Made by a program: the position numbers and the translations under genes | Assembly (NCBI RefSeq): GCF_900046475.1 | Contig: NZ_FCOU01000002.1 | Span: 1-64,000 of the forward strand | Origin: Collinsella ihumii | Lineage (GTDB): Bacteria; Actinomycetota; Coriobacteriia; Coriobacteriales; Coriobacteriaceae | Direction of reading: 5' to 3' | DNA: 64,000 bases | The notes under the pieces: generated by a model | What the model was told of the DNA's origin: nothing | Seen by the model: only the letters and a program-made list of their open reading frames with translations | Databases searched by the model: none | In this document: piece by piece, positions 41,847 to 57,471 of the stretch | Numbering within the stretch: the first letter of the stretch is position 1 | Layout of the letters: every line of letters begins with the position of its first letter

Positions 41847-42833
41847 TTACAGCTCGCGGCCCGGATAGTGGCAGTTCACGAAGTGACCCGGTTTGACCTC
41901 GATGGTCGGCGGGACCTCCGCGGAGCACTTCTCCGTCGCATGTGGGCAGCGCGTGTGGAACGGGCAGCCGCTCGGGATGTTGGTGGGGCTCGGCAGGTCG
42001 CCCTCGATCAGCACATGCTTCTTCTCGATCGTGGGGTCGGGAATAGGCACGGCCGACAACAGAGCCTGCGTATAGGGGTGCTGCGGGTTGCTGTAGAGCT
42101 CCTCGTTGGGCGCAACCTCCATCATGGTGCCCAGATACATGACGCCGATGCGATCGGAGATCATCTCGACGACGGCGAGGTCATGGGAGATGAACAGGTA
42201 GGTCAGGTTGTACTGCTCCTGCACGTCGCGCAGCAGGTTCAAAACCTGTGCCTGAATGGACACGTCGAGGGCGGAAACCGGCTCGTCGGCCATGATGAGC
42301 TTGGGGTTGACCGACAGGGCGCGGGCGATGCCGATGCGCTGGCGCTGGCCGCCGGAGAACTCGTGCGGATAGCGCTCGCCGTGCGTGGGCGGCAGGCCGA
42401 CGACCTCGAGCAGCTCGTGGACGCGCTTCAGGCGCTCGCCGGGGCTCATCTTGGTGTGCACGAGCAGCGGCTCGGCGATGATGTCCTGAACCCTCATGCG
42501 CGGGTTCAGCGAGCCATACGGGTCCTGGAACACCATCTGCATCTTGGAGCGCAGCGGACGCATCTCCTTGGCAGAGATCTTCGCGATGTCCTGACCGTCG
42601 AAGATGATCTCGCCGGAGTCGGGGGTAATCAGGCGGTTGATGAGGCGGCTCGTGGTGGACTTGCCGCAGCCGGACTCGCCGACCAGCGAGAACGTCTCGC
42701 CCGGCATGATGTCAAAGCTGACGTTGTTGACCGCGTGGACCCACTTGTTCGCTTTGCCGAAGAAGTTCTTGCCCACGGGGAAGCGCTTGCTCAGGTTCTT
42801 GACCGACAGCAAGGGTTCGGTTGCTTGTGCCAT
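41847..42833 (-). CDS. oppF: Oligopeptide ABC transporter ATP-binding protein OppF
   Basis: The 328-residue ATPase has Walker [10 protein letters not shown] near residue 55, [15 protein letters not shown] near 170 and [15 protein letters not shown] near 193. The C-terminal peptide-transporter motif includes [11 protein letters not shown] with cysteines of the iron-sulfur-like oligo_HPY region. It powers peptide uptake together with OppD and is last in oppABCDF. Confidence 0.93.
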
Positions 42834-42836
42834 CGC

Positions 42837-43826
42837 TTACGCCTCCTTTCGTGCATTGGTGTGGAACGGGCAAGCTGCGTAGTGGTTCTCAGCGACCTTG
42901 ACGAGCTTGGGCAGCGCCTCGGAGCACGAAGCCTGCGCGTACTTGCAGCGCGGGGCAAAGCGGCAGCCCGAGGGCATGGCGGCCAGATCGGGCACGGAGC
43001 CGGGAATGGACGGCAGACGGTGCACACGGCGGCCGAGCTTGGGCACGGACTCGATAAGGCCCTGCGTGTAGGGATGCTGCGGGTTGGAGAACAGCTCCTT
43101 GACCGGGGCCTCCTCCACGATGTTGCCGGCGTACATGACAATGACGCGGCTGCAGGTCTCGGCGACGACACCCAGGTCATGGGTGATCATCAGGATACCC
43201 GTGTTGCGCTTGTTGCGGATGTCCTCCATGAGCGCCAAGATCTGCGCCTGAATGGTCACGTCGAGAGCGGTGGTGGGCTCGTCGGCGATGAGCAGCTTGG
43301 GCTCGCAGGACATAGCCATAGCGATCATGACGCGCTGGCACATGCCGCCCGACAGCTCGTGCGGATAGTTGCGCAGCGTCATCTCGGGCTCGGGAATACC
43401 CACGAGCTTTAGCGCGGAAACGCAGCGCTTATGCAACTCGTCTTTGGAAAGCTCCTTGTTGTGCAGGGAGATCGCCTCGATGAGCTGGTTCTCGATGCGC
43501 ATGATGGGGTCGAGCGCGCTCATGGGCTCCTGGAAGATCATCGAGATCTCGTTGCCGCGGATGCTCTGCATCTCGGCCTCGGAAAGCTCGAGGATGTGCT
43601 TGCCGCCGAAGACGATGTCACCGGAGATACGCGTCGACAGCTTGTTGTGCAGACGCATGACCGACATCGAGGTGACGGACTTGCCGCAGCCCGACTCGCC
43701 TACCAGACCGACGATCTCGCCGGCGTTGACCGAAAACGACACGCCGTTGACGGCGGTAATCCAGTCTTTCTTGCCGCGCTTGAATTCTGTTCTGAGGTCC
43801 TTGACCTCAAGCAAGGGTTCAGCCAT
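42837..43826 (-). CDS. oppD: Oligopeptide ABC transporter ATP-binding protein OppD
   Basis: The 329-residue ATPase shows [15 protein letters not shown] near residue 37, [16 protein letters not shown] near 158 and [15 protein letters not shown] near 183. The oligo_HPY C-terminus is present ([14 protein letters not shown]). It pairs with OppF across a three-base gap. Confidence 0.93.
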
Positions 43827-43838
43827 GAGGACCTCCGA

Positions 43839-44735
43839 CTAGTTGAGCTTGGGATCGAGCGTGTCGCGCAGGCCGTCGCCGAACAGGTTGAAGGCCAACA
43901 CGGTCAGGAAGATCACCAAACCGGGGAACAGGACGAGGTGCGGGGCAATCGCCAGATAGTTGCGGCCCTGGGACAGAATAGCGCCCCACTCCGCCTGCGT
44001 GACGTTCGCGCCGAAGCCGAGGAACGACAGCGAGGAGGCCGAAAGGATGGCGCCACCCACGTTCATGGTGAAGTTGACGATGAGCGCCTGCATGGTGCCC
44101 GGGAAGATGTGCACGAACATCGTGCGCGCCGGCGAGCAGCCGATGGACTGGGCGACCTCGACGTAGAGCTCGCCGCGGACCTCGAGCACCGCGCCGCGGA
44201 TGATGCGCGCAAAGGACGGCACCGTGAAGACGGCCAGGCCGATCATGATGTTCGTGATTCCCGGGCCGATGATGGCCACGATGGCGATGGCGAGCAGGAT
44301 CGAGGGGAACGCGAACATGACGTCGCAGATGCGCATGATGATCGAGTCGGCGATGCCGCCGAAGAAGCCCGCGATCAGGCCGAGGACGACGCCGCCCGCC
44401 GTACCGAGAATCGAAGCGGTGAGCGCCGTGCCGAGCGACAGCTGCGTGCCCGCAAGGATACGGCTGAAGACGTCGCGGCCAAACTCGTCGGTGCCCCAGA
44501 TGTGCGTGGCCGACGGGCCGGCCAGAATCGCGCCGTAGTCGTACGCGTTGGGATCATAGGGAACGATCGACGGGCCGATGACAGCCATGATCAAGATGAA
44601 CACGATGAACAGGAAGCCAAGCACCGCGGTCTTACGGCGCAGGAACTTCTTAATGAACTGCACGGTAGGATTTTGCGCCTTGGGCAGCTCCTCAGCAGAC
44701 AGGGCCTGAGCGGTGGTTGCGTTGGTATCAGCCAT
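43839..44735 (-). CDS. oppC: Oligopeptide ABC permease OppC
   Basis: The 298-residue membrane protein has the N-terminal cytoplasmic lead, a first helix (AVLGFLFIVFILIMAVIG), five more, and the inner-loop EAA-like region VEVAQSIGCSPARTMFVHIFPG. GTDEFGRDVFSRILAGTQLS is typical of OppC/DppC. The acidic N-terminal TAQALSAEELPKAQNP is ordinary. Confidence 0.93.
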   Translation of the reverse strand: MADTNATTAQALSAEELPKAQNPTVQFIKKFLRRKTAVLGFLFIVFILIMAVIGPSIVPYDPNAYDYGAILAGPSATHIWGTDEFGRDVFSRILAGTQLSLGTALTASILGTAGGVVLGLIAGFFGGIADSIIMRICDVMFAFPSILLAIAIVAIIGPGITNIMIGLAVFTVPSFARIIRGAVLEVRGELYVEVAQSIGCSPARTMFVHIFPGTMQALIVNFTMNVGGAILSASSLSFLGFGANVTQAEWGAILSQGRNYLAIAPHLVLFPGLVIFLTVLAFNLFGDGLRDTLDPKLN

Positions 44736-44746
44736 GGTATCGCCTC

Positions 44747-45667
44747 CTATTCGTATCTCACGCGCGGGTTGATGACGGCGTACAAGATGTCGGCAAGCAA
44801 GTTGATCACCATGTACTCGAACGAGAAGAACAAGATGAGCGCCTGCACGACCTCATAGTCGCGGAAGCCGATAGAGTCGACGAGCAGACGGCCCATGCCC
44901 GGAATCGAGAACACGCTCTCGACCACGACGGAACCGGCGATCAGGGCGCCGATCTGCAGCGCGGTCACGGTGATGATGTCGATCGAGGAGTTCTTGAAGG
45001 CGTGCACCATGATGACGCGCGGCTCGGGCAGGCCCTTGGCGCGCGCGGTGCGGATGTAGTCCTTGCCGAGGTTCTCGATCATGGACGAACGGGTCACACG
45101 CGCGAGGATCGCCATGATGCCCGCGCCCATGGCGATCGAGGGCAGCACGTAGCCGCGCCAGTCCTCGAGGCCGCCCGTGGGGAAGATGCCCAGGTTGACC
45201 GAGAAGATCTGCATGAGCTGCAGGCCGAGCCAGAAGTTCGGCAGCGAGATGCCGGCGATGGCGATGAGCATGCCGAGCAGGTCGAGCGCACGGCCGCGGT
45301 TGATGGCCGCGATGACACCGATGATGATGCCGATGATGACCGACCAGGTGATCGAGCAGATCGTCAGGTAGATGGTGATGGGCAGACGCGGGGCGAGTAG
45401 CTCGGCCACGGACGTGTTGTTCGTGAACGAATGGCCCAGGTCGCCCTGGAAGATGCCGGTGATCCACTGGAGATACTGCGGAACGAGCGGCTGGTCGAGG
45501 CCGAGCTCGCGACGGATGTTCTCGATCTCGCCGATCGTCGCCGTGGGGCCGCCGATCTGACGCGCAGGGTCGCCAGGAATGAGGCGGACGAACATGAAGA
45601 TGATGATGGAAATGACGATCAAGAGCGGAATCATGCTCAGGACGCGTTTAACAGCGTATTTCCCCAT
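44747..45667 (-). CDS. oppB: Oligopeptide ABC permease OppB
   Basis: The 306-residue permease starts MGKYAVKRVLSMIPLL at 45667 after GAGGGAA. It has six helices, LIPGDPARQIGG near the N-terminus, LGLDQPLVPQYLQWI and the loop YIRTARAKGLPEPRVIMVHAFKN, which are OppB/DppB hallmarks. Between it and oppA lies a hairpin that may set higher oppA expression. Confidence 0.93.
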   Translation of the reverse strand: MGKYAVKRVLSMIPLLIVISIIIFMFVRLIPGDPARQIGGPTATIGEIENIRRELGLDQPLVPQYLQWITGIFQGDLGHSFTNNTSVAELLAPRLPITIYLTICSITWSVIIGIIIGVIAAINRGRALDLLGMLIAIAGISLPNFWLGLQLMQIFSVNLGIFPTGGLEDWRGYVLPSIAMGAGIMAILARVTRSSMIENLGKDYIRTARAKGLPEPRVIMVHAFKNSSIDIITVTALQIGALIAGSVVVESVFSIPGMGRLLVDSIGFRDYEVVQALILFFSFEYMVINLLADILYAVINPRVRYE

Positions 45668-45706
45668 GTAGTTCCCTCCCTTTGTGTCGTATCGGGGAGA
45701 CACGGG

Positions 45707-45740
45707 GGCTGCCAGCCCCTGAAATCAGAGGCTGGCAGCC
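45707..45740. terminator. Intercistronic hairpin between oppA and oppB
   Basis: GGCTGCCAGCC at 45707-45717 and GGCTGGCAGCC at 45730-45740 are exact complements. No T-run follows on the minus strand, so it more likely protects the oppA mRNA or partly stops transcription before oppBCDF. Confidence 0.7.
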
Positions 45741-45780
45741 ACCCAACACCCTCGATGTGAAACTCAGGACGTAATCAACA

Positions 45781-47506
45781 CTAGACGTTCAGGGTCGCGT
45801 GAATGACGTCGATACCCTGGGCGACGTACTTGATGCCGTTGAGGTACGCCTTGTAGGACAGGAGGGTGTTGTCGCTGGCGAGGAACAGCCACGGGCACTC
45901 CTCCCAAGCGATGTCCTGGCACTTGCCGTAGTGCTCGTTCTGCTCCTCCTCGGTCGGGGCGGCGTTGCCGGCCTCGAGCTCGGAGTCGAACTCGTCGTTC
46001 TTCCAGAAGGCGGTGTTGTAGCCGGTCGGCGGGACCATGGCGCTGGAGAGCAGCGAGCGCAGGAAGCCGTCGGGGTCGGACTGGGACCAGTTGACGTACC
46101 ACATCTGGAGCTCGGTGGTGTCCTCGGGCTCAGCGGCGATCTCGGCGTTGGTGGCAGCCTCGTTGGGCAGGACGTTCACCGTGACGCCGATCTTCTCGAG
46201 CTGCTGCATGACGAACGTGGCGCCCTTAGTCTCCTGCGTGGAGTTGTCGCAGATGATGGAGACCTCGAAGCCGTCGGCGTAGCCGGCCTCCTCGAGCAGG
46301 CTCTTGGCCTTGTCGATGTCGGTGTCGTACGGCGTCTGCGCCTTGTAGCCGGGGACGAGCTCGGGCAGGCAGGAGGTCGCGGGCGTCGCGGCGCCGGAGT
46401 ACATGACGTTGACGTACTCGTCCTGGTTGAACGCATAGTTCAGGGCCTGGCGCACGCGGACGTCGGACAGCGGCTCGTAGTTGGTGTTGAGCGTGACATA
46501 ACGCATGGTCGTCGAGGGGATCGAGATCATGTTGATGTCGCCGGCGGAGCGCACCGTGGCGACCTGGTCGGTCGGCATCGGGTAGATGGCCGTGGCCTCA
46601 CCGGTCTGCAGGGCGGCGATACGGGAGCCGGCCTCGGGCACGACGCGGAAGTCGATGCGGTCGATGGAGGGAGCCTCGCCCCAGTAATCCTCGTTGCGGA
46701 CGATGGAGACGTGATCGCCCTGCGCATACTCCTCGAGGATGTAGGGACCGGAACCTGCGGACTGCTTGGAGTAATCCCAGCTGGAGTCGGCAAGCGCAGT
46801 CGGGGAGATGAGGTAGAACTGCGTCATGGAGTTCATGAACGGAGCATAGGGCTCGGGCAGGTGGAACTGAACGGTGAGCTCATCCACGGCGGTGCAGGAA
46901 TCGACGCGGGTGTTCTCGGTGTTCTCGTCGATGGTCTCGATGAACGTACGACGACGACGCCAGTTGTTCTCGGGGTTGATCGCTGCCTCGTAGTTGGCGA
47001 CGACGGCCTCGGCGTTCAGCGGGGCGCCGTCGGTGAAGGTGATGCCCTCGTTCAGATGGAACGTGTAGGTGCACGCGTCGTCGGAGACCTCGTAGCTCGC
47101 GGCGGCGCGGGGAGCGTACTCATAGTTCTCATCCAGGTCATAGAGCGAGTCGTAGATGTAGTAGACGACGTTGCCCGAGTTGCCGTCGGACCAGTCCATG
47201 GGGTGCATCTCCTGGAACTCGCCCTCGAAGGCCAGGATGCACTCGTTCTTGGGAGCCTTGCCGTCGGTCTTGGTGGCGCGAACGACGAAGCCCTCCTCGT
47301 CGGCCTCGATCGTCTCGACGTTGGATCCGCCGTCGCCGGAAGCCGAGCCGGTGTCAGTGCCGGTCGAGGTGTCGCCACCGCCGCCGCAGCCGGCGAGGCC
47401 GAGGCCCGCGACGGACGGTCGCGGCACCGGCAGCCACGGCACCCACGAACCCGCGACGAGTCACACCGGAGTCCGACCACGTCATGTTCTTGTTCTCTTT
47501 GTCCAT
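45781..47506 (-). CDS. oppA: Peptide-binding lipoprotein OppA (signal sequence frameshifted)
   Basis: The body (about 540 residues) is a family 5 solute-binding protein: RDYEVS-like beta strands, FHLNEGITFTDGAPLNAEAV, AGSGPYILEEYAQGDHV, LNYAFNQDEYVNVMYSG. The true start is the ATG at 47506 (MDKENKNMTWSDSGVTRRGF) after AAAGGAG. The signal TRRGFVGAVAAGAA carries the twin-arginine motif; the lipobox GLGLAGC lies in another frame. A tandem CGTC duplication (47410-47417) causes the +1 shift; one copy removed gives a perfect lipoprotein signal. It is either a slipped-strand mutation or an assembly error. A peptide or glycopeptide ligand is expected. Confidence 0.85.
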
Positions 47507-47633
47507 TACAGACTCCTTTCGCACCGAGAACACTCCACGCATTGGCGCATTTGATGTAGTGCAGCCAAAATCCTCCTCGCGGCACAGACAGCAAATGAAC
47601 AATCGCTATACTGTGCCCGCCACAACACTATAA

Positions 47634-47653
47634 CGCTTTAACGCGTTAGAGCG
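47634..47653. promoter_or_regulatory. 20-bp palindromic operator between oppA and alpha-fucosidase genes
   Basis: CGCTTTAACGCGTTAGAGCG is a palindrome with one mismatched pair and TAACGCGTTA at its centre. It lies in the only divergent region between oppABCDF and the GH29/transglutaminase genes, the position for a shared repressor site. LacI or GntR-type factors use such sites; no regulator gene is adjacent. Confidence 0.6.
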
Positions 47654-47762
47654 GAGGCAAGGTGTAAACGGCCATACCGTTCAGGGACCGGAAACAGACC
47701 GTTCACCGCCAGGAAATACCATTATTGCTTATTTCGGACAAAACGGACACATTTTGTGAGGG

Positions 47763-49106
47763 ATGGAGGAAATGTTGGCCTACCAGTTCGACCGGGAGCG
47801 CTACAACCGACGCATGAAGTGGTACCTGCACGACCGCTTCGGCATGTTCATCCACTTCGGAATCTACAGCATCCCCGCACGGGGCGAATGGCTGCGCAGC
47901 ACCGAGGAGATGCCCGAGGAGCTCTACCTGCCCTATTTCGAGGAGTTCAACCCGTATGCGCTCGACGCCCGCGCCTGGGCCCGCGCCGCCAAACGGGCAG
48001 GCATGCGCTATGCCGTGCTCACCTCCAAGCACCATGACGGCTTCTGCCTGTTCGACACCAAGACCACCGACTTCAAGTCCACGAACACCCCCTACGGTCG
48101 CGACATCGTGGCCGACTTCCTGGACGCGTTTCGCGCCGAGGGCATCCGCGTGGGCCTGTACTACTCGGTGATCGACTGGCACCATCCCGACTTCCCGCAA
48201 TACGGCGACCGTCAGGCCCCGCTGCGTAACGATCCCGTAGCCGGCTCCAACGAGCACCGCGTGTTCGACCGCTACCTCGACTACATGCACGAGCAGGTGC
48301 GCGAGATCTGCACCAACTACGGCAAGCTCGACCTTTTGTGGTTCGACTTCTCCTATGACGACATGCGCGGCGAGAAGTGGCGCGCCACCGAGCTCATGAA
48401 CATGGTGCGCGAGCTGCAGCCCGACGTCATCACGAACAACCGTCTCGAGGTCTCCGGCGAAGGCTTCGGGTCGCTCGCCGAAGGGCACCCCACCCCCTAC
48501 CACGGCGACTTCGTGACGCCCGAGCGCATGATCCCGCCCAACGGCCTGTTCGACGTCGAGGGCAACCCGCTCGCATGGGAAGCCTGCATCACGATGAACG
48601 ATAACTGGGGCTACTTCTCCCACGACAACAACTTCAAGCCCGCGCCGCTGCTCATCCACAAGCTCGTCGAGTGCGTCTCCAAGGGCGGCAACCTGATCTT
48701 GAACGTCGGCCCGGACGCGACCGGCCGCATCCCCGACCAGTCGCTTGCCATCCTGGACGAGATCGGCCGCTGGATGGACCGCAACTCCGCGAGCATCTAC
48801 GGCTGCGGCCCCGCCGCCGGCGGTCCGATCGAGGTCGAGCGCCCCGAGTACGGCCGCATCACCCGCAACGGCGACACCTACTACTTCCACCTGTACGAGA
48901 ACGCGCTCGGCCCCATGCCGCTGCTCGGCGTGCCCAAGGAGCGCATCGCCTCGATGCGCCTTCTGCGCGACGGCACCGAGGTCCAGCTCTCGAACAGCTG
49001 GACGCACAGCGACTACCCCAACATCGCCTTCGCGGACCTGGGCCCCTCGCCCGTACTCCCCGATCCCGTGGATACCGTGCTCGCCGTCAAGATCAAGGAG
49101 GCCTAA
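47763..49106 (+). CDS. Alpha-L-fucosidase, glycoside hydrolase family 29
   Basis: The 447-residue enzyme has the GH29 barrel: WYLHDRFGMFIHFGIYSIPARGEW, YAVLTSKHHDGFCLFDTKTTDF, VGLYYSVIDWHHPDFP and KLDLLWFDFSYDD with the probable nucleophile Asp. There is no signal peptide, so it cuts fucosides inside the cell. Start at 47763 or the ATG at 47772, both close to GGAGG. It is divergent from the oligopeptide importer and three bases upstream of the transglutaminase-fold gene. Confidence 0.9.
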   Translation: MEEMLAYQFDRERYNRRMKWYLHDRFGMFIHFGIYSIPARGEWLRSTEEMPEELYLPYFEEFNPYALDARAWARAAKRAGMRYAVLTSKHHDGFCLFDTKTTDFKSTNTPYGRDIVADFLDAFRAEGIRVGLYYSVIDWHHPDFPQYGDRQAPLRNDPVAGSNEHRVFDRYLDYMHEQVREICTNYGKLDLLWFDFSYDDMRGEKWRATELMNMVRELQPDVITNNRLEVSGEGFGSLAEGHPTPYHGDFVTPERMIPPNGLFDVEGNPLAWEACITMNDNWGYFSHDNNFKPAPLLIHKLVECVSKGGNLILNVGPDATGRIPDQSLAILDEIGRWMDRNSASIYGCGPAAGGPIEVERPEYGRITRNGDTYYFHLYENALGPMPLLGVPKERIASMRLLRDGTEVQLSNSWTHSDYPNIAFADLGPSPVLPDPVDTVLAVKIKEA

Positions 49107-49109
49107 AGG

Positions 49110-51761
49110 ATGGCCGTGCTTTCCGATTCGTTTGCCGCCCATGCGGACAAGCGCTTCGACGCCCGCCGCGAGGTGCTCTCCCCCATCGCACAGGCCATCG
49201 AGGCGGGCCTCGCCGCCATCGACGATGCGGACGTCCGCACGCTCATCAAGAGCTACTACGGCACCATGCCGCTGACCGACGTGTTCGACGCCGAGTTCGA
49301 GCTGTTCGCCTCGTTTGCCCGCCAGGCCTGCGAGCTGCGCCGCACCAGCCCGTGGTGCGCCGACATCCCCGAAGACATCTTCGTCCAGTACGTCGCGAGC
49401 CCGCGCGTCAACAACGAGCCGCTCACCGACGCCTGGCCCACCTTCCGCGCCGCGCTCGCCGACCGCTTGCGCGGGCTGGACGCCTACCACGCCATCGTGG
49501 AGACCAACTACTGGTGCTGCGAGACGGCGACCTATCAGTCCTCCGACGGCCGCACGCTGGGCCCGCTCGGCGTGCTCGCCTCGGGTGACGGTCGCTGCGG
49601 CGAGGAGTCGACCTACCTCGTGACCGCCCTGCGCGCCAACGGCATCCCCGCGCGCCAGCTCTACACGCCCTGGTGGGCGCACTGCGACGACAACCACGCC
49701 TGGGTCGAGGCGTACGCCGACGGATCGTGGCACTACCTGGGCGCCTGCGAGCCGGAGGAGGAACTCGACCGCGGCTGGTTCACCGCGGCGTCCGGTCGCG
49801 CCATGCTCGTCCACACGCGCCTGTTCGACGACTTCGGCTGCGACTTCGAGCGCGATGCGCACCTGCTCGCCCGCGAGGGCAGCCAGGTGATCGTGAACCT
49901 CACCGAGTCCTACGCCCCCTGCGTGCTGCTGTCGGTGCGCGTCCTTAACGCCGCCGGCGCCCCCGTCGAGGGCGCCTCGGTGCGCCTGCGCCTGGTGAAC
50001 GAGGCCGCATGGCGCGACATCGCCCACCTCTCCAGCGATGAGGCGGGCATGGCCCGCATCGTGGTCGGCGAGGGCACCGTGCGCGTGGTCGCCACCACGG
50101 GCGACGGCATGGCCGAGACCATCATCGACACCGCGGACTGCCATGACCTTGAGCTCACGCTGGGCGAGACCGTGCACGGCGACACCGATTGGGTCGACTT
50201 CGACGTGCACGCGCCGGCAGATCATCCCGCGCCCTCCCACCCGCTCACGCCCGAGCAGGTCGAGCGCGGCCGTGCCCGCAAGCGCGAGGCCGACCGCATG
50301 CGTACCGAACGCGTCGCCGGCAACGTGGAGCGCGCCCGCGAAATCGCCCGCGCCTGCGGGCACGACGCGGACGGTTGCCTGCCCTACTTCGAGCAGGCCT
50401 TCGCCAACGCGCCCGAGGTCGAGCGCTTCCTGACCGTCGACGACGGGGCCGACCGTGCCGCCCTGCTCGCCACGCTCACGTCCAAGGACTTCCGCGACCT
50501 GTCGGCCGACATCCTGGAAGACCACATCCGGGGCGGTCGTGCGGTCCGCGAGGATGCCCTCGCCTACCTCGCGCGCGAAGGCGTCGACGACCAGGCAAAG
50601 GCGCAGGAGCTCTACGAGCGCTACGTCCTGTGCCCGCGCGCCCACTTCGAGCACCTCTCCGCATACCGCGCCTTCATCCGCAGCCGCTTCGACGCTGAGA
50701 CGGTCGCAGGATTCATCGCCGACCCGCTGCGCGTGTGGGACTACATCTGCGAGCACACCGCGTTCACCTCCCGCGAGCACACCAAGCGCTACGTGGGCAC
50801 CCCGCGCGGCGCGCTCGTGTCCGGCCAGGCGAGCGCCGTCACCCGCCGCTCGCTGTTCGTGGCCATCTGCCGCAGCTTCGGCATCGCCGCCCGCATCAAC
50901 CCCGTCGATGCGGGCATCGAGTACTTCGCCCACGGCTCGTTCGTGCCCGTCGAGCACGCCGAGGAGGGCTTCGAGGTCCTGTTCGCCAGCGACGCCGACC
51001 CGGCGCCCGGCTACTTCCAGACGTGGAGCATCGCCCGCTACCTGCACTTCACCGCGGTGAGCGGTAAGGCGGCCCAGGGCTTCAAGGTGCTCGACCTGTG
51101 GGGCAAGGCACCGTTCGAGGACGGTGTCTGCCGCGTGAAAATGCCGCTCGGCGAGTATCGCCTCACCACCGCGGTTCGCCTTCCCAACGGCGACGTGCAC
51201 GCCGCCGAGCGCGCGTTCGAGGTGACCCCCGACTACGACGGCACCCCCATCCAGCTCAAGCTGCGCGAGCCGGACGTCTCCGAGATGCTGCAGAGCATCA
51301 AGCTCGACGCCTTCGCGCTCGCCGATGCCGAAGGCACCGCGGTCGATTGCGGCCGCATCGCCGCAGCAGGCGAGACGCCTGCCAAGCCCGTTATCGTGGC
51401 GTTCCTCGAGCCGGGCATGGAGCCCACCGAGCACCTGCTCAACGAAATGCGCGAGCAGGCCGGACGCCTGGACGCCGCGGGCGTGCCCATCGTGCTCGCC
51501 GTGCGCGATGCCGAGGAGCTCGCCGATCCCACGCTCGCCCGCACGCTGCCCGTGCTTCCCCGCACGACGGTCGCCTACGACGACTTCTCCGAGCTGCCGG
51601 AGCACCTGGCGCGCCGCATGTTCACCAATCCCGAGAAGCTGCCGCTGATCATCCTCGCCGTCGCCGACGACGCCGGCAACCTGACGGGTCGCTACGCCGC
51701 GGCAGGCTACAACGTAGGCACCGTCGATCTGGTGCTCAAGCTCATCTCGCTCATCGACTAG
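49110..51761 (+). CDS. Large transglutaminase-fold protein with PNGase-like RCGE motif
   Basis: The 883-residue cytoplasmic protein has a transglutaminase core at about residues 155-230: SGDGRCGEEST with Cys163, DDNHAWVEAY with His196 and WHYLGACEPEEEL near 207-219. RCGE plus xHxWxE plus the CE pair resembles peptide:N-glycanases, although the position of their catalytic Asp is Gly211 here. Similar GACEPE proteins occur in Bacteroides and Clostridia without known function. A second, degenerate core appears near residues 570-620 (RRSLFVAICRSFGIAARINP). A thioredoxin-like C-terminus (VIVAFLEPGMEPTEHL) ends the protein. It follows GH29 by three bases after AAGGAGG. Confidence 0.75.
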   Translation: MAVLSDSFAAHADKRFDARREVLSPIAQAIEAGLAAIDDADVRTLIKSYYGTMPLTDVFDAEFELFASFARQACELRRTSPWCADIPEDIFVQYVASPRVNNEPLTDAWPTFRAALADRLRGLDAYHAIVETNYWCCETATYQSSDGRTLGPLGVLASGDGRCGEESTYLVTALRANGIPARQLYTPWWAHCDDNHAWVEAYADGSWHYLGACEPEEELDRGWFTAASGRAMLVHTRLFDDFGCDFERDAHLLAREGSQVIVNLTESYAPCVLLSVRVLNAAGAPVEGASVRLRLVNEAAWRDIAHLSSDEAGMARIVVGEGTVRVVATTGDGMAETIIDTADCHDLELTLGETVHGDTDWVDFDVHAPADHPAPSHPLTPEQVERGRARKREADRMRTERVAGNVERAREIARACGHDADGCLPYFEQAFANAPEVERFLTVDDGADRAALLATLTSKDFRDLSADILEDHIRGGRAVREDALAYLAREGVDDQAKAQELYERYVLCPRAHFEHLSAYRAFIRSRFDAETVAGFIADPLRVWDYICEHTAFTSREHTKRYVGTPRGALVSGQASAVTRRSLFVAICRSFGIAARINPVDAGIEYFAHGSFVPVEHAEEGFEVLFASDADPAPGYFQTWSIARYLHFTAVSGKAAQGFKVLDLWGKAPFEDGVCRVKMPLGEYRLTTAVRLPNGDVHAAERAFEVTPDYDGTPIQLKLREPDVSEMLQSIKLDAFALADAEGTAVDCGRIAAAGETPAKPVIVAFLEPGMEPTEHLLNEMREQAGRLDAAGVPIVLAVRDAEELADPTLARTLPVLPRTTVAYDDFSELPEHLARRMFTNPEKLPLIILAVADDAGNLTGRYAAAGYNVGTVDLVLKLISLID

Positions 51762-52061
51762 GTGGCGGAGCCCAGGGCGGACGCCGCAGACGAAGGGGGC
51801 GCGGTTCACGATGCGAACCGTGCCCCCTTTTTGCCGACGCACTAATATAGATGCGCCCTTGGGAAGCGCTGGTCGTTCCGCCATTCGGCATCCCCGCGCC
51901 CATCTGAAGAGAAAGCGCGGTCGACGGACCCACACTCATAAAGGCCTGCCGCTCATTCATGAATGAGCGGCAGGCCGTTTTGACGTTTCCGCAGGATTCA
52001 ATTGTTTAACACCCCTGTTCATTCATGAATGAACAGGCCGGTGTCAGGCCAGATTCCTCTC
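51762..52061. repeat. Terminator and TTCATGAA palindromes
   Basis: A terminator for the GH29 operon lies at about 51796-51836: GGGGGCGCGGTTC and GAACCGTGCCCCC, then TTTTT. At 51943-51976 a perfect 34-bp palindrome centred on TTCATGAA and at 52014-52037 a 24-bp one (CCTGTTCATTCATGAATGAA) bound an element holding TTTCCGCAGGATTCAA. It belongs to the family at 36722 and 59156. Confidence 0.88.
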
Positions 52062-53003
52062 TTACGCCTCCATCAGTCCGGCGTAGGCGGCACCGATCAG
52101 GCCGGCATCGTTGCCGAGCGACGCGACCTCGATCGGAGTGTCGGCGCACACCGACAGGGTGTAGTGCTTGAAACGCTCCACGAGCTTGCCCAGGAACAGG
52201 TCGCCCGCGGCGGACAGGCCGCCGCCGAGCACGATGGCCTCGGGATCGACCGTGCATGCGAGGTTGGCGAGCGCCAGGCCGAGATACTCGACCATGGTGT
52301 CGACCGCCGCCGCAGCCGCCTCGTCGCCCGCCTGATAGGCTTCGAACACGCTCTTGGAGTCGGAGGGACCGGCGAGCTCGACGGGCTGGATCCCGCGCTT
52401 CTCGCATTCCATCTTGTAGGTGTTCACGACGCCGGTCGCAGACGCATACTGCTCGAGGCAGCCATGGCGTCCGCAGCCGCACACGCGCTCTTCGGCCGGA
52501 TTCACGCAGGTGTGGCCGACCTCGCCGCCCGCACCGTTGGCACCACCGATGACTTTGCCGTCGACGACGACGCCGGCGCCGATGCCCGTGCCGAGCGTCA
52601 CGAGCGCCATGCTGCGGTGGCCGAGCGCCGAACCGCGCCACATCTCGCCGAGCGCTGCCGCATTGGCGTCGTTCACGAACGCGACGGCGGCGCCGCCGAA
52701 CGCATCCTCGAGCGCCGCGCCGAGCCCCTGGAGGTCGATCGAGGCGTTGGCGATCAGCTTGACGTTGCCGTCATCGGGAACCGGAGCCGGAACCGCAAGG
52801 CCGATACCCTTGAGGACGACGTCGCCATCCTGGGCGTCAAGCAGGCTCTTGATGCCGTCGATGACCGCTGCATAGCCGGCCTCGTCCACCAGCGGCGGCG
52901 TGGGCACGCTCAGCTTGGACAGAATCTTGCCCTCGCGGTTGACCAGGCCCTCCTTGACGGTCGTGCCTCCCACGTCGATACCAACAAATAGCTCCTCGGC
53001 CAT
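52062..53003 (-). CDS. ROK-family sugar kinase (glucokinase type)
   Basis: The 313-residue kinase starts MAEELFVGIDVGGTTVKEGL, with the ATP phosphate loop DVGGTTVK. LVTLGTGIGAGVVVDGK, GEVGHTCVNPAEERVCGCGRHGCLEQYAS with the zinc CxCGxxGCxE motif, and VLGGGLSAAGDLFL define ROK. It phosphorylates glucose or a related hexose; fucose is not a usual ROK substrate. It is convergent with the glycosidase pair. Start at 53003 follows AAGGGGG. Confidence 0.9.
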   Translation of the reverse strand: MAEELFVGIDVGGTTVKEGLVNREGKILSKLSVPTPPLVDEAGYAAVIDGIKSLLDAQDGDVVLKGIGLAVPAPVPDDGNVKLIANASIDLQGLGAALEDAFGGAAVAFVNDANAAALGEMWRGSALGHRSMALVTLGTGIGAGVVVDGKVIGGANGAGGEVGHTCVNPAEERVCGCGRHGCLEQYASATGVVNTYKMECEKRGIQPVELAGPSDSKSVFEAYQAGDEAAAAAVDTMVEYLGLALANLACTVDPEAIVLGGGLSAAGDLFLGKLVERFKHYTLSVCADTPIEVASLGNDAGLIGAAYAGLMEA

Positions 53004-53107: not shown

Positions 53108-54307
53108 CTACTGCGCGCCGCTCGCAAGAACCCGGCGTATCCCCGGTACGCTTGATATCTCCTCGAGAATGTCGATGAGCTTGTCGCTTTGGAAGTACTC
53201 TCCGCGACGTCGCGAGCCCATCGGGCGCAGCATGCCGTATGCGCACGCCCGACCGACCAACGTCGACGCTGCTCTCGGGGTGATACCGAGCTTCTCGGCC
53301 ACAAACGCGATCGTGACGACAGGCTGCTCGGCCAGCAGAGCGGGCAGTCTCCAGATCGAAGACCCCGCACGCTCCTTGATGTCCTTCTTCCAGGCATCCA
53401 TGACCTCATCCATGAGAGCCGAGACGCGCCCGCCGATCACGAGAGCGAGCTCCAGGGCCTCAATCGTGCAGATGACAATAGGCATGGGGTCACCCTGTTG
53501 GTACGCTCTGATCGCAGCCATGTAGTCATCGACATCATGGAGCAAACCCGCTGAAACGGGAAGCGTGCTTCTCGAGAGCACCCCCTCCGACGAAAGGACG
53601 ATATGGAGCAGAACGCGCCCCGTTCGCCCATTGCCGTCAATGAACGGATGAATCGTCTCGAACTGAGCATGGGCGATCGCCGCCTTGGCGACAGGGTTGA
53701 TGTCATCCCGACGGATGAACGCAACGAGATCCTCGAGTGCGCCCGCAAGCCGTTGAGGCGCAGGAGGAACAAAGAGGGCGCCATGGGGGCTATATGCAGT
53801 TCCGCCGATCCAAACCTGCTCGTCTCTAATTTCCCCTCCAAATGAAGCGCCCGTCGGAGCGATAAGCGCCTCGTGGACAGCACGGATCTGATCGACTGTC
53901 GTGCTCGCCGAGAGCGAGAGCGCAGTTCGTATCGCGGCGATGTTTCCTTGGACGATGCGCGCGTTGGCAGGGGCCTCGCTCGTCAACTCCGCGAGCGCAA
54001 CAATGCGCACGCTCGACGTGAGATGTTCAATCTGGGAGCTGGCCGCGGACTCGCTGCGCAGCAGCAGCGCCGGCAGGTCGTAGCCACGCACCGCCTGCAG
54101 CTCGTCGAAACGCGCAAGCTTCACAAGCAGCTCGCCGATACGAGCCGACAGGGCCTCGGGTATCGCCAGGTTCAGCGATGCTATCTCCGCAGGAATCGCT
54201 GCCTGATAGCTCGATGCGATCCTGCGGCGCGCGGTTTTGGAGATCATCGCGCGCTCGTCAGGGTCAATGTGCCAGGGAAGCTCCTCGTATGAAACGGATG
54301 GCCACAT
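53108..54307 (-). CDS. Fic-family protein with C-terminal winged-helix domain
   Basis: The 399-residue protein carries the Fic core HPFIDGNGRTGR at about residues 221-232, which transfers AMP (or another nucleotide group) to a target. SSQIEH near 90 resembles the class II inhibitory helix S/TxxxE, with His after Glu instead of Gly or Asn. The C-terminus from about residue 315 (FVAEKLGITPRAASTLVGRA, RRRGEYFQSDKL) looks like a winged-helix DNA-binding domain. Start ATG at 54307 follows GAGAGGGG. Two operator-like palindromes lie just upstream, suggesting autoregulation. It may be antitoxin-like or a regulator, not a proven toxin. Confidence 0.88.
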   Translation of the reverse strand: MWPSVSYEELPWHIDPDERAMISKTARRRIASSYQAAIPAEIASLNLAIPEALSARIGELLVKLARFDELQAVRGYDLPALLLRSESAASSQIEHLTSSVRIVALAELTSEAPANARIVQGNIAAIRTALSLSASTTVDQIRAVHEALIAPTGASFGGEIRDEQVWIGGTAYSPHGALFVPPAPQRLAGALEDLVAFIRRDDINPVAKAAIAHAQFETIHPFIDGNGRTGRVLLHIVLSSEGVLSRSTLPVSAGLLHDVDDYMAAIRAYQQGDPMPIVICTIEALELALVIGGRVSALMDEVMDAWKKDIKERAGSSIWRLPALLAEQPVVTIAFVAEKLGITPRAASTLVGRACAYGMLRPMGSRRRGEYFQSDKLIDILEEISSVPGIRRVLASGAQ

Positions 54308-55342: not shown

Positions 55343-56275
55343 GTGGCGGACACCGCATCCTACGATACCGTCGAAGATCTGCTCGCCGCCCGTGAGGGCG
55401 AGAGCGTCCACCTCGAATGCTGCCGCGAGACCGTGGACCGGGCCGTTCGCTTCGTCCACGAACGCTATGGCCGCCGGCGCTGCGCGTTCTACGTCTCCAC
55501 CGACCGCGGATTCGATCGCGAGACGGTGCGCTCGTATCTCAAGCTCTTCTCGCGCCTCGCGGGAGGCTCCGTGACTCCCCAGGACGCCATGGCGCATTTC
55601 GGACTCACCTCGACGGCGCGATCTCAGGTGAAGACCTTGACCGCCGAGCAGCGCGCGCTGCTCAACTTTGCCCGCATGAGCCTTTTTGAACCCGAGGTCG
55701 TCTTCTGCGAGCGACCGCTTGCGGACGTGACGCCCGCCACGCGCGGACTTGTGACCGCATGGATGGGCCAGGTCGCCGAGGCCGGGGGCGCGCTCATCAC
55801 CGCCGGCGAGCCCCTGCGCGAGGCGCTCCTCATGCCCGGCACCGCCTTCTTCGAGGAGGACGGGCGCCTCCACGAGGCCAAGACCGCGGTCGGCGACGAT
55901 GAGACGCAAGACGTGGAGTTCGCCGGCGACGAGGTCCGCGTCTTCAAGGTCCCGGCGAAATCCGATGGGGCGACCCTGCTGTTCGATCCGCGCGAAGTCG
56001 ACTTCGTGGAGAGCGTGAACCGCGCCAACTTCGCCTCCGTGCGCGGCGAGCTCTACCCGGTGAGCATGACGCTCGACAAGCTGGAGGCGGAGCTCGAGCG
56101 ATTCGGCTTCTTCCGGTGCCATCGCTCCTACATCGTGAACGTCCAGAAGGTGGCGAAAGTCGAGCGCTTCACGCGCAACAGCTTCAACCTCACGCTCGCC
56201 GACGCGCATCAGACGCAGATCCCGCTCGCCAAGGGACGCGCCGAGGCCATGCGCGAACGCTACGGCTGGCGCTAG
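55343..56275 (+). CDS. LytTR transcriptional regulator with degenerate ABC-ATPase-like N-terminus
   Basis: The 310-residue protein ends in a LytTR DNA-binding domain (about residues 205-305): FDPREVDFVESVNRANFASV, ELERFGFFRCHRSYIVNVQKV. The first 190 residues resemble the second half of an ABC ATPase, LTAEQRALLNFARMSLFEPEVVFCERPLADV in place of signature and Walker B, but no Walker A is present. The GTG start at 55343 follows GGAGGAG. It is divergent from an ABC-2 permease and likely controls the exporters here. Confidence 0.85.
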   Translation: MADTASYDTVEDLLAAREGESVHLECCRETVDRAVRFVHERYGRRRCAFYVSTDRGFDRETVRSYLKLFSRLAGGSVTPQDAMAHFGLTSTARSQVKTLTAEQRALLNFARMSLFEPEVVFCERPLADVTPATRGLVTAWMGQVAEAGGALITAGEPLREALLMPGTAFFEEDGRLHEAKTAVGDDETQDVEFAGDEVRVFKVPAKSDGATLLFDPREVDFVESVNRANFASVRGELYPVSMTLDKLEAELERFGFFRCHRSYIVNVQKVAKVERFTRNSFNLTLADAHQTQIPLAKGRAEAMRERYGWR

Positions 56276-57330: not shown

Positions 57331-57471
57331 ATGGATCCCGCGCTCATGGGTGCGATCATCATCGCGTGCTGCTTTGCCGCCGGCGTGTTCGAGACGGGCA
57401 GGCGAAAGAAGAACCGTAAGGACGAGGGCGAGCATGCGCCCGAAACACGGAAAGGAGGAGGCACGCGATGA
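57331..57471 (+). CDS. Small single-pass membrane protein in ABC exporter operon
   Basis: The 46-residue reading frame starts MDPALMGAIIIACCFAAGVF one base after the previous stop and encodes one membrane helix followed by a basic RRKKNRK segment and a polar tail. Its TGA overlaps the ATPase ATG by four bases (ATGA), which supports real translation. Function unknown; small subunits of exporters or regulators are possible. Confidence 0.6.
   Translation: MDPALMGAIIIACCFAAGVFETGRRKKNRKDEGEHAPETRKGGGTR

Follow-up and report, generated by a model that had tools for sequence, protein, structure and literature searches.

The closest described counterpart of the system considered here is the alf-2 pathway of Lactobacillus casei, in which fucosyl-N-acetylglucosaminyl-asparagine (Fuc-GlcNAc-Asn) is imported and defucosylated by AlfC, an enzyme of glycoside hydrolase family 29 (GH29); AsnA2 then hydrolyses GlcNAc-Asn to Asp and 1-amino-GlcNAc, a ROK kinase follows, and the fucose is excreted (PMC6960285). 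The genes for the permease and the GH29 enzyme are divergent there from an operon encoding the amidase, a peptidase and the ROK kinase (PMC6960285). Removal of N-glycans is ascribed, in the available text of a review, to GH18, GH85 and peptide:N-glycanases (PNGases), in prokaryotes commonly outside the cell, and GH18, GH85, PNGase, GH2 and GH130 appear in that text as families with N-glycan-core enzymes (PMC10154615). Yeast PNGase has the triad Cys191, His218 and Asp235 (available text of PMC2791212), and PNGases carry CXXC motifs near their transglutaminase (TG) core (available text of PMC9102325). Here we analyzed 64,000 nucleotides of Collinsella ihumii DNA (contig NZ_FCOU01000002.1, positions 1 to 64,000; "the window"), in which the genes of an oligopeptide importer (Opp) diverge from those of a GH29 alpha-L-fucosidase and an 883-residue TG-fold protein, hereafter the TG protein. 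These genes form a conserved, co-inherited unit, more general than a sequence-only reading of the locus had described, and they probably serve the joint catabolism of some glycopeptide-like substrate.

The importer occupies positions 41847–47506 of the reverse strand and comprises the ATPase genes oppF (41847–42833) and oppD (42837–43826), both with PF00005 and PF08352, the permease genes oppC (43839–44735; PF00528 and PF12911) and oppB (44747–45667; PF00528 and PF19300), and oppA, encoding a peptide-binding lipoprotein (45781–47506; SBP_bac_5, 1.8e-95); oppF, oppD, oppC and oppB are syntenic in relatives. With one binding protein, two permeases (BPD_transp_1) and two ATPases (ABC_tran with oligo_HPY), the Pfam content is that of an oligopeptide ATP-binding cassette (ABC) importer. 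The sequence-only reading was therefore right to call the set complete, with the genes extending to 41847, outside the interval of 45781–53003 that it gave, and right about the divergent pair on the forward strand, in which the TG gene (49110–51761) starts 3 bp past the stop of the GH29 gene (47775–49106). The fucosidase is a clear GH29 member (PF01120, 5.8e-86, 289.5 bits, over the cut-off) matched by 54 Protein Data Bank (PDB) sequences with E-values of 0.001 or lower. Its nearest solved relative is 6gn6 (2.6e-163, residues 11–442), which we take to come from Paenibacillus thiaminolyticus and for which, unlike the window GH29, no link to a TG gene was seen. Its start is most likely the TTG at 47775, since relatives keep TTG or ATG there and not at 47763 or 47772, where in-frame ATGs offer possible alternatives. 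The TG protein matches PF01841 in two stretches (4.4e-22; 78.8 bits against a curated cut-off of 23), with the catalytic Cys and His present. No NCBIfam model matched either enzyme. Neither N-terminus is strongly hydrophobic in a simple hydropathy check (best 15-residue means of 1.35 for the TG protein and 0.89 for GH29), which agrees with the earlier view that both enzymes lack a signal peptide.

Co-occurrence was followed across 58 relative genomes, 35 of them from the same genus. The TG protein gave full-strength hits in 6 of the 35 genus genomes, plus one genome of another genus (G046), where it occurs without GH29. Among the genus genomes, GH29 at E below 1e-200 and OppA at 75% identity or more were present in the same six, with the OppA ranked next by E-value within the genus at 29% identity. 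Weak hits were not taken as orthologues: five to GH29 (25–33% identity) elsewhere in the genus, and those to the TG domain in G038, in G040 and at a second site in G046. The whole order lies on one contig in five of the six genus carriers, the window included, and is divided between contigs in the other (G022). Counting the window and eight of the best 80 TG loci defined below, the full opp-GH29-TG order is kept in nine Coriobacteriia genomes, so that the order noted earlier from the window alone holds across relatives; four of these loci (L028, L029, L030 and L036) appear to belong to genomes already counted, and L031, L033, L034 and L035 come from Olsenella sp. An285, Olegusella massiliensis, an Atopobiaceae metagenome-assembled genome and Collinsella sp. 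An7, respectively. The closest named relative among the matches listed is Candidatus Collinsella stercoripullorum, with a TG protein 94% identical to that of the window.

The TG protein is a member of a large family found in Coriobacteriia as well as Clostridia. Its loci were collected with the patterns WAHCDDN and [LM]PLTDVFD, which gave at least 575 confirmed stretches, and the best 80 loci, from Coriobacteriia, Lachnospiraceae, Oscillospiraceae, Clostridium, Paenibacillus and relatives, were used. Neighbors in flanks of up to 10 kb, shorter at contig ends, were scored by marker searches, which replaced an earlier clustering of open reading frames (ORFs) that had picked antisense ORFs in G+C-rich loci. 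Within these flanks, OppC-type genes occur at 24 of the 80 loci, GH29 at 17, M17 aminopeptidase at 13, GH18 at 5, FucI with an FGGY kinase at 2, and GH130, GH85 and sulfatase at 1 each; GH2 with DUF4432 is found at 5, GH2 hits overall being present at 8, three of them at 23–25% identity. Gene orders vary widely, and include Opp-(M17)-CutC-TG(-ROK-GH29), sugar ABC-GH29-TG-M17, FGGY kinase-FucI-ABC-GHL6-M17-TG, CutC-TG-DUF4432-GH2, GH29-TG-GH130-GH18 (L098) and GH29-GH18-TG-GH85 (L088); the GH85 protein of L088 carries SLH domains, and its solved relatives are endo-beta-N-acetylglucosaminidases. In 30 genomes, hand-picked for variety from 32 of the best 80 loci, less L077 and L078, after the neighbor table had been seen, and not independent, GH29 lies in the TG flank of 13 against 0.41 expected from copy number, M17 in 8 against 0.13, and CutC in 12 against 0.21; in two more (L043 and L054) GH29 lies just outside the fetched flank. 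The TG gene is constant while glycosidases and importer type change, which suggests that the target of its product is the joint between sugar and peptide, the one part that all substrates share. Together with the co-inheritance of OppA, GH29 and the TG protein, these carbohydrate-enzyme and aminopeptidase neighbors support the central proposal of the sequence-only reading, import and intracellular breakdown of fucosylated glycopeptides.

Two further associations were seen in the same flanks. CutC (PF03932), annotated as a copper homeostasis protein, is the commonest TG neighbor among the markers tried (33 of the best 80 loci; examples are L052:8435–9202, L070:7638 and L105:8966); 29 of the 30 hand-picked genomes gave a single match, and the remaining one gave two pieces lying side by side. 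CutC is present in 33 of the 35 genus genomes, so its co-occurrence within the genus says little, and its physical linkage in Firmicutes is the informative observation. A second pairing of TG with a glycosidase, in which a GH5 gene lies on the opposite strand, is found at L037, L039–L042, L045, L046, L048–L050 and L053; assignment of this neighbor to the GH5_18 beta-mannosidases was not supported, its best matches being exo-1,3-glucanases.

The fold of the TG protein was modeled with AlphaFold2 from 65 sequences (mean pLDDT 92.8, pTM 0.91; an earlier six-sequence model with pLDDT 64.6 went unused). These 65 members are the window protein and those of 64 of the best 80 loci, the remaining 16, mostly partial or near-duplicate, having been left out by hand. 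The model predicts N-terminal helices, a catalytic TG domain, an Ig-like domain, further helices, a second TG domain and a thioredoxin-like domain. In the catalytic domain (residues 88–262, forward-strand positions 49371–49895; PF01841, 8.9e-17), all 65 members share R162, C163, G164, E165, H196, W198, E200, W207, G211, A212, C213 and E214, whereas invariance at residues 189–195 is partly a product of the search patterns. The RCGE, HxW and CE motifs picked out earlier are thus real and lie at 162–165, His196-x-Trp198 and Cys213-Glu214. The Ig-like domain (residues 272–353; 49923–50168, forward strand) closely matches 3e8v, a "possible transglutaminase-family protein" of Bacteroides fragilis (VIA-align Z 16.4, rmsd 1.0 over 82 aligned residues; profile 6.9e-17). 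That structure, under a title that gives no function, was solved as a proteolytic fragment only, and its Ig-like domain sits at 289–370, a near-equal numbering, from which we infer that its parent protein is probably a member of the TG family. The second TG domain (residues 500–720; 50607–51269, forward strand; PF01841, 2e-05) has Ala576 where Cys would fall by analogy, and Cys is outside the five commonest residues of that column. The thioredoxin-like domain (residues 728–883; 51291–51758, forward strand) resembles ResA (2f9s; VIA-align Z 13.9, rmsd 2.7, 135 aligned) and carries E-P-(T/S)-E-H (columns 771–775, 65/65) where redox members carry CxxC, a possible metal or substrate site.

Searched as a profile against the PDB, the TG domain matches 3isr, a putative cysteine protease of Cytophaga hutchinsonii (6.5e-4), yeast PNGase 1x3w (0.0022) and 3esw (0.0025), which are the same aligned yeast sequence, and mouse PNGase 2f4m (0.0086), with transglutaminases next at 0.32 or worse. 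The PNGase match centers on GRCGE...HxWxE...W...CE, a motif order shared with the cytosolic enzymes (Png1/NGLY1) along with the triad Cys and His: yeast Cys191, His218 and Asp235 align with Cys163, His196 and Gly211, respectively, and the yeast Glu three positions beyond Asp235 aligns with Glu214. The sequence-only reading had already placed the catalytic Asp at Gly211, and Gly stands there in every one of the 65 aligned members. With yeast Asp235 falling on this Gly, the candidates for the catalytic acid are Glu214, Asp193 and Asp194. Compared with cytosolic PNGase, the window protein has three domains in addition, the Ig-like one, the second TG domain and the thioredoxin-like one; neither a PUB nor a PAW domain was found in it, and no Pfam family of PNGase F-type domains was among the hits at E up to 0.1.

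Our favored, though tentative, reading is that the unit carries out intracellular catabolism of glycopeptides or glyco-amino acids derived from fucosylated N-glycan cores, with the TG protein as the GlcNAc-Asn amidase. OppABCDF would import small glycopeptides that other microbes have already trimmed; cytosolic GH29 would take off the fucose; and the TG protein, through Cys163 and His196, would hydrolyze the innermost GlcNAc-Asn amide to give peptide-Asp and a glycosylamine. The glycosylamine would decay to GlcNAc, which the ROK kinase could phosphorylate, and fucose would probably be excreted, because a search of ten Coriobacteriia carriers, G024 and G058 being one genome and counted once, turned up no L-fucose isomerase in any of them. 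Gut mucin or milk glycopeptides, which the sequence-only reading took as the likely niche, are no more than a possible source of substrate. The ten carriers also yielded no GH85 or GH18, so trimming of the substrate by others would be needed; possible trimming enzymes sometimes stand in the same cluster in Firmicutes (L088, L098). Such a pathway would work as alf-2 (AlfH, AlfC, PepV, AsnA2, SugK) does, with a cytosolic GH29, a GlcNAc-Asn amidase step, a ROK kinase, divergent operons and excretion of fucose, and would differ from it in its amidase family, a TG-fold protein taking the place of the glycosylasparaginase AsnA2, and in its importer, Opp for peptides rather than a major facilitator superfamily permease for the free glyco-amino acid. 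The alf-2 peptidase is of family M20, whereas some Firmicutes TG loci have M17, and to the GntR-type regulator AlfR2 no counterpart was assigned in the window unit. No glycosylasparaginase was found among the cluster proteins scanned with Pfam, a genome-wide search for it not having been made. Divergent control of a peptide importer and a fucosidase had seemed non-standard; a precedent for a divergent arrangement exists in alf-2, where the permease and GH29 stand together on one side (PMC6960285).

Several findings weigh against this assignment. That the TG protein has PNGase-type activity draws support from the domain-level match to the yeast and mouse enzymes, but the Cys-His-Asp triad is incomplete, no CXXC motif occurs among the Cys positions of the window protein, and the best single domain match is 3isr rather than a PNGase. 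Profile matches of the whole protein to PNGases are non-significant (0.39 and 0.43), and neither the top 50 Foldseek hits, which include animal transglutaminases, 3isr and thioredoxin folds, nor the top 50 VIA-align hits contain a PNGase, such whole-model searches being dominated by the other domains. It is conceivable, although rather unlikely, that the TG protein acts in the cytosol as a peptidase or isopeptidase on the peptide part of imported glycopeptides, that GH29 only defucosylates and that another enzyme cuts the sugar-peptide bond. The 3isr match, an importer for peptides and the triad Asp lost relative to PNGase would all suit such a role. The GRCGE shared with PNGase, however, reads AGVCRD in 3isr, a protein called a putative protease by its title, and the CE position falls outside the 3isr alignment. 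An M17 aminopeptidase is, moreover, already near TG at 13 of the best 80 loci, and carbohydrate enzymes (GH2, GH5, GH18 and GH130) stand at other TG loci.

Other points against cleavage of the GlcNAc-Asn bond lie in the neighborhoods: 63 of the best 80 TG loci have no GH29 within the fetched flank, 11 Coriobacteriia loci pair TG with an exo-1,3-glucanase-like GH5 protein and no GH29, GH85 and GH130 each occur at one TG locus only, and the GH18 of L098 has a chitinase (5gzu) and an N-acetylglucosaminidase (6inx) as its nearest solved relatives, which does not make it an N-glycan enzyme. This diversity of adjacent glycosidases (exo-1,3-glucanase-like GH5, chitinase-like GH18, sulfatase, GHL6), importers of either peptide or sugar type and the lack of GH85 and GH18 in Coriobacteriia carriers could also mean that the unit handles fucosylated material that is not N-linked, such as O-glycopeptides, fucosyl-oligosaccharides or another amide-linked sugar, with the TG protein cutting a different amide or ester. 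We regard this as unlikely, given that GH85 (relatives of endo-beta-N-acetylglucosaminidases), GH130 and mannosidase-type GH2 beside TG are N-glycan-core families in the available text of PMC10154615. Certain TG genes lack both GH29 and Opp in their vicinity, and the neighboring ROK gene is near-universal in the genus, as would be expected if Opp, GH29 and TG were neighbors by descent alone, without a joint function; the joint presence and absence across 35 genus genomes, the 3-bp spacing of GH29 and TG and the recurrence of GH29 linkage in different gene orders make this very improbable. Catabolism of N-glycan-core glycopeptides must finally accommodate an OppA that is frameshifted in this genome. 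The sequence-only reading had given OppA a twin-arginine translocation (Tat) lipoprotein signal, and the twin-Arg/lipobox leader is indeed continuous in eight of eight relatives read (L028–L031, L033–L036). In the window, the ATG at 47506 encodes the twin-arginine leader MDKENKNMTWSDSGVTRRGFVGAVAAGAATV, after which the frame shifts near a GACG/GACG tandem at 47410–47418, so that the start and the lipobox are not in one continuous reading; read from the ATG, the frame meets a stop after some 50 codons, and the body is open from 45781 to 47442. The shift may represent real decay, phase variation or an assembly error.

It is possible, if doubtful, that the TG protein is the founding member of a family of glycopeptide amidases that bacteria keep in the cytosol and that combine the TG fold with a divergent catalytic acid. 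This protein would then form the constant core of interchangeable glycopeptide-catabolic operons in Coriobacteriia, Clostridia and Paenibacillus; CutC, a frequent companion, may act on the glycosylamine that is set free. A part for CutC in the handling of glycopeptides or glycosylamines is a guess on our side, although linkage to TG may give this protein a different context from copper homeostasis. If such a widespread cytosolic amidase family exists, it would offer Coriobacteriia and Clostridia a route to peptide-bound leftovers of host or dietary glycoproteins, in the same way of working as alf-2 but with a different amidase family, and it could provide a new tool enzyme. A term search found no mention of transglutaminase in the available text of the review of bacterial N-glycan breakdown (PMC10154615); the available text of PMC5583593 mentions Collinsella once and transglutaminase not at all. 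Among open-licence PMC titles and the beginnings of abstracts, no paper on this TG family was found, and the family may still be described elsewhere.

Both arms of the unit are probably controlled from the 268-bp gap between oppA and GH29. The likely operator is a direct repeat, ACCGTTCA-N14-ACCGTTCA, at 47676–47705 (forward strand), which is invariant in the window and three of three near relatives. Exact matches number five in the 58 genomes, all of them in opp-GH29 gaps, which corresponds to five of the six genus carriers; allowing one mismatch gave six further matches in six genomes, away from the cluster, where a reversed control pattern gave two. In five more distant relatives the best candidate for a repeat pair is weaker and scores 11 to 14 of 16. 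Upstream of the repeat, a candidate sigma-70-like promoter directed toward GH29 (CAGACA-16-TATACT; 47585–47612, forward strand) was found once against 0.2 expected, with CTATACT kept in the window and three of three near relatives. The palindromic operator proposed earlier did not survive comparison: the 20-bp near-palindrome at 47634–47653 exists, with one mismatched pair, but the window contains 16 palindromes of this kind, against a mean of 5.4 in 20 Markov-1 simulations, and none stands at its place in the eight relatives compared. The chance of one such palindrome within the gap is 0.7%.

Downstream, a glucokinase-like ROK kinase gene faces the GH29-TG pair from the reverse strand (52062–53003; PF00480, 1.6e-63; 238 bits against TIGR00744, below its cut-off of 260). 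The sequence-only reading was correct about its position, and it adjoins the cluster at L028–L030, L032, L033 and L036 while lying outside the flanks of L031, L034 and L035. Of the 29 genus genomes that lack TG, however, 25 have a ROK protein at 55% identity or more, and this near-universal occurrence weakens the case for ROK as a specific member of the cluster. The ROK gene is adjoined in turn by one for a Fic-domain protein (53108–54307; PF02661, 9.6e-23). Further along, a LytTR DNA-binding protein is encoded at 55343–56275 (PF04397, 2.2e-19), upstream of an ABC-transporter-like ORF at 57468. The direct repeat of the opp-GH29 gap may resemble the consensus of LytTR sites; the window LytTR protein was rejected as a regulator of the cluster, having no counterpart in 11 relative loci, some of them short.

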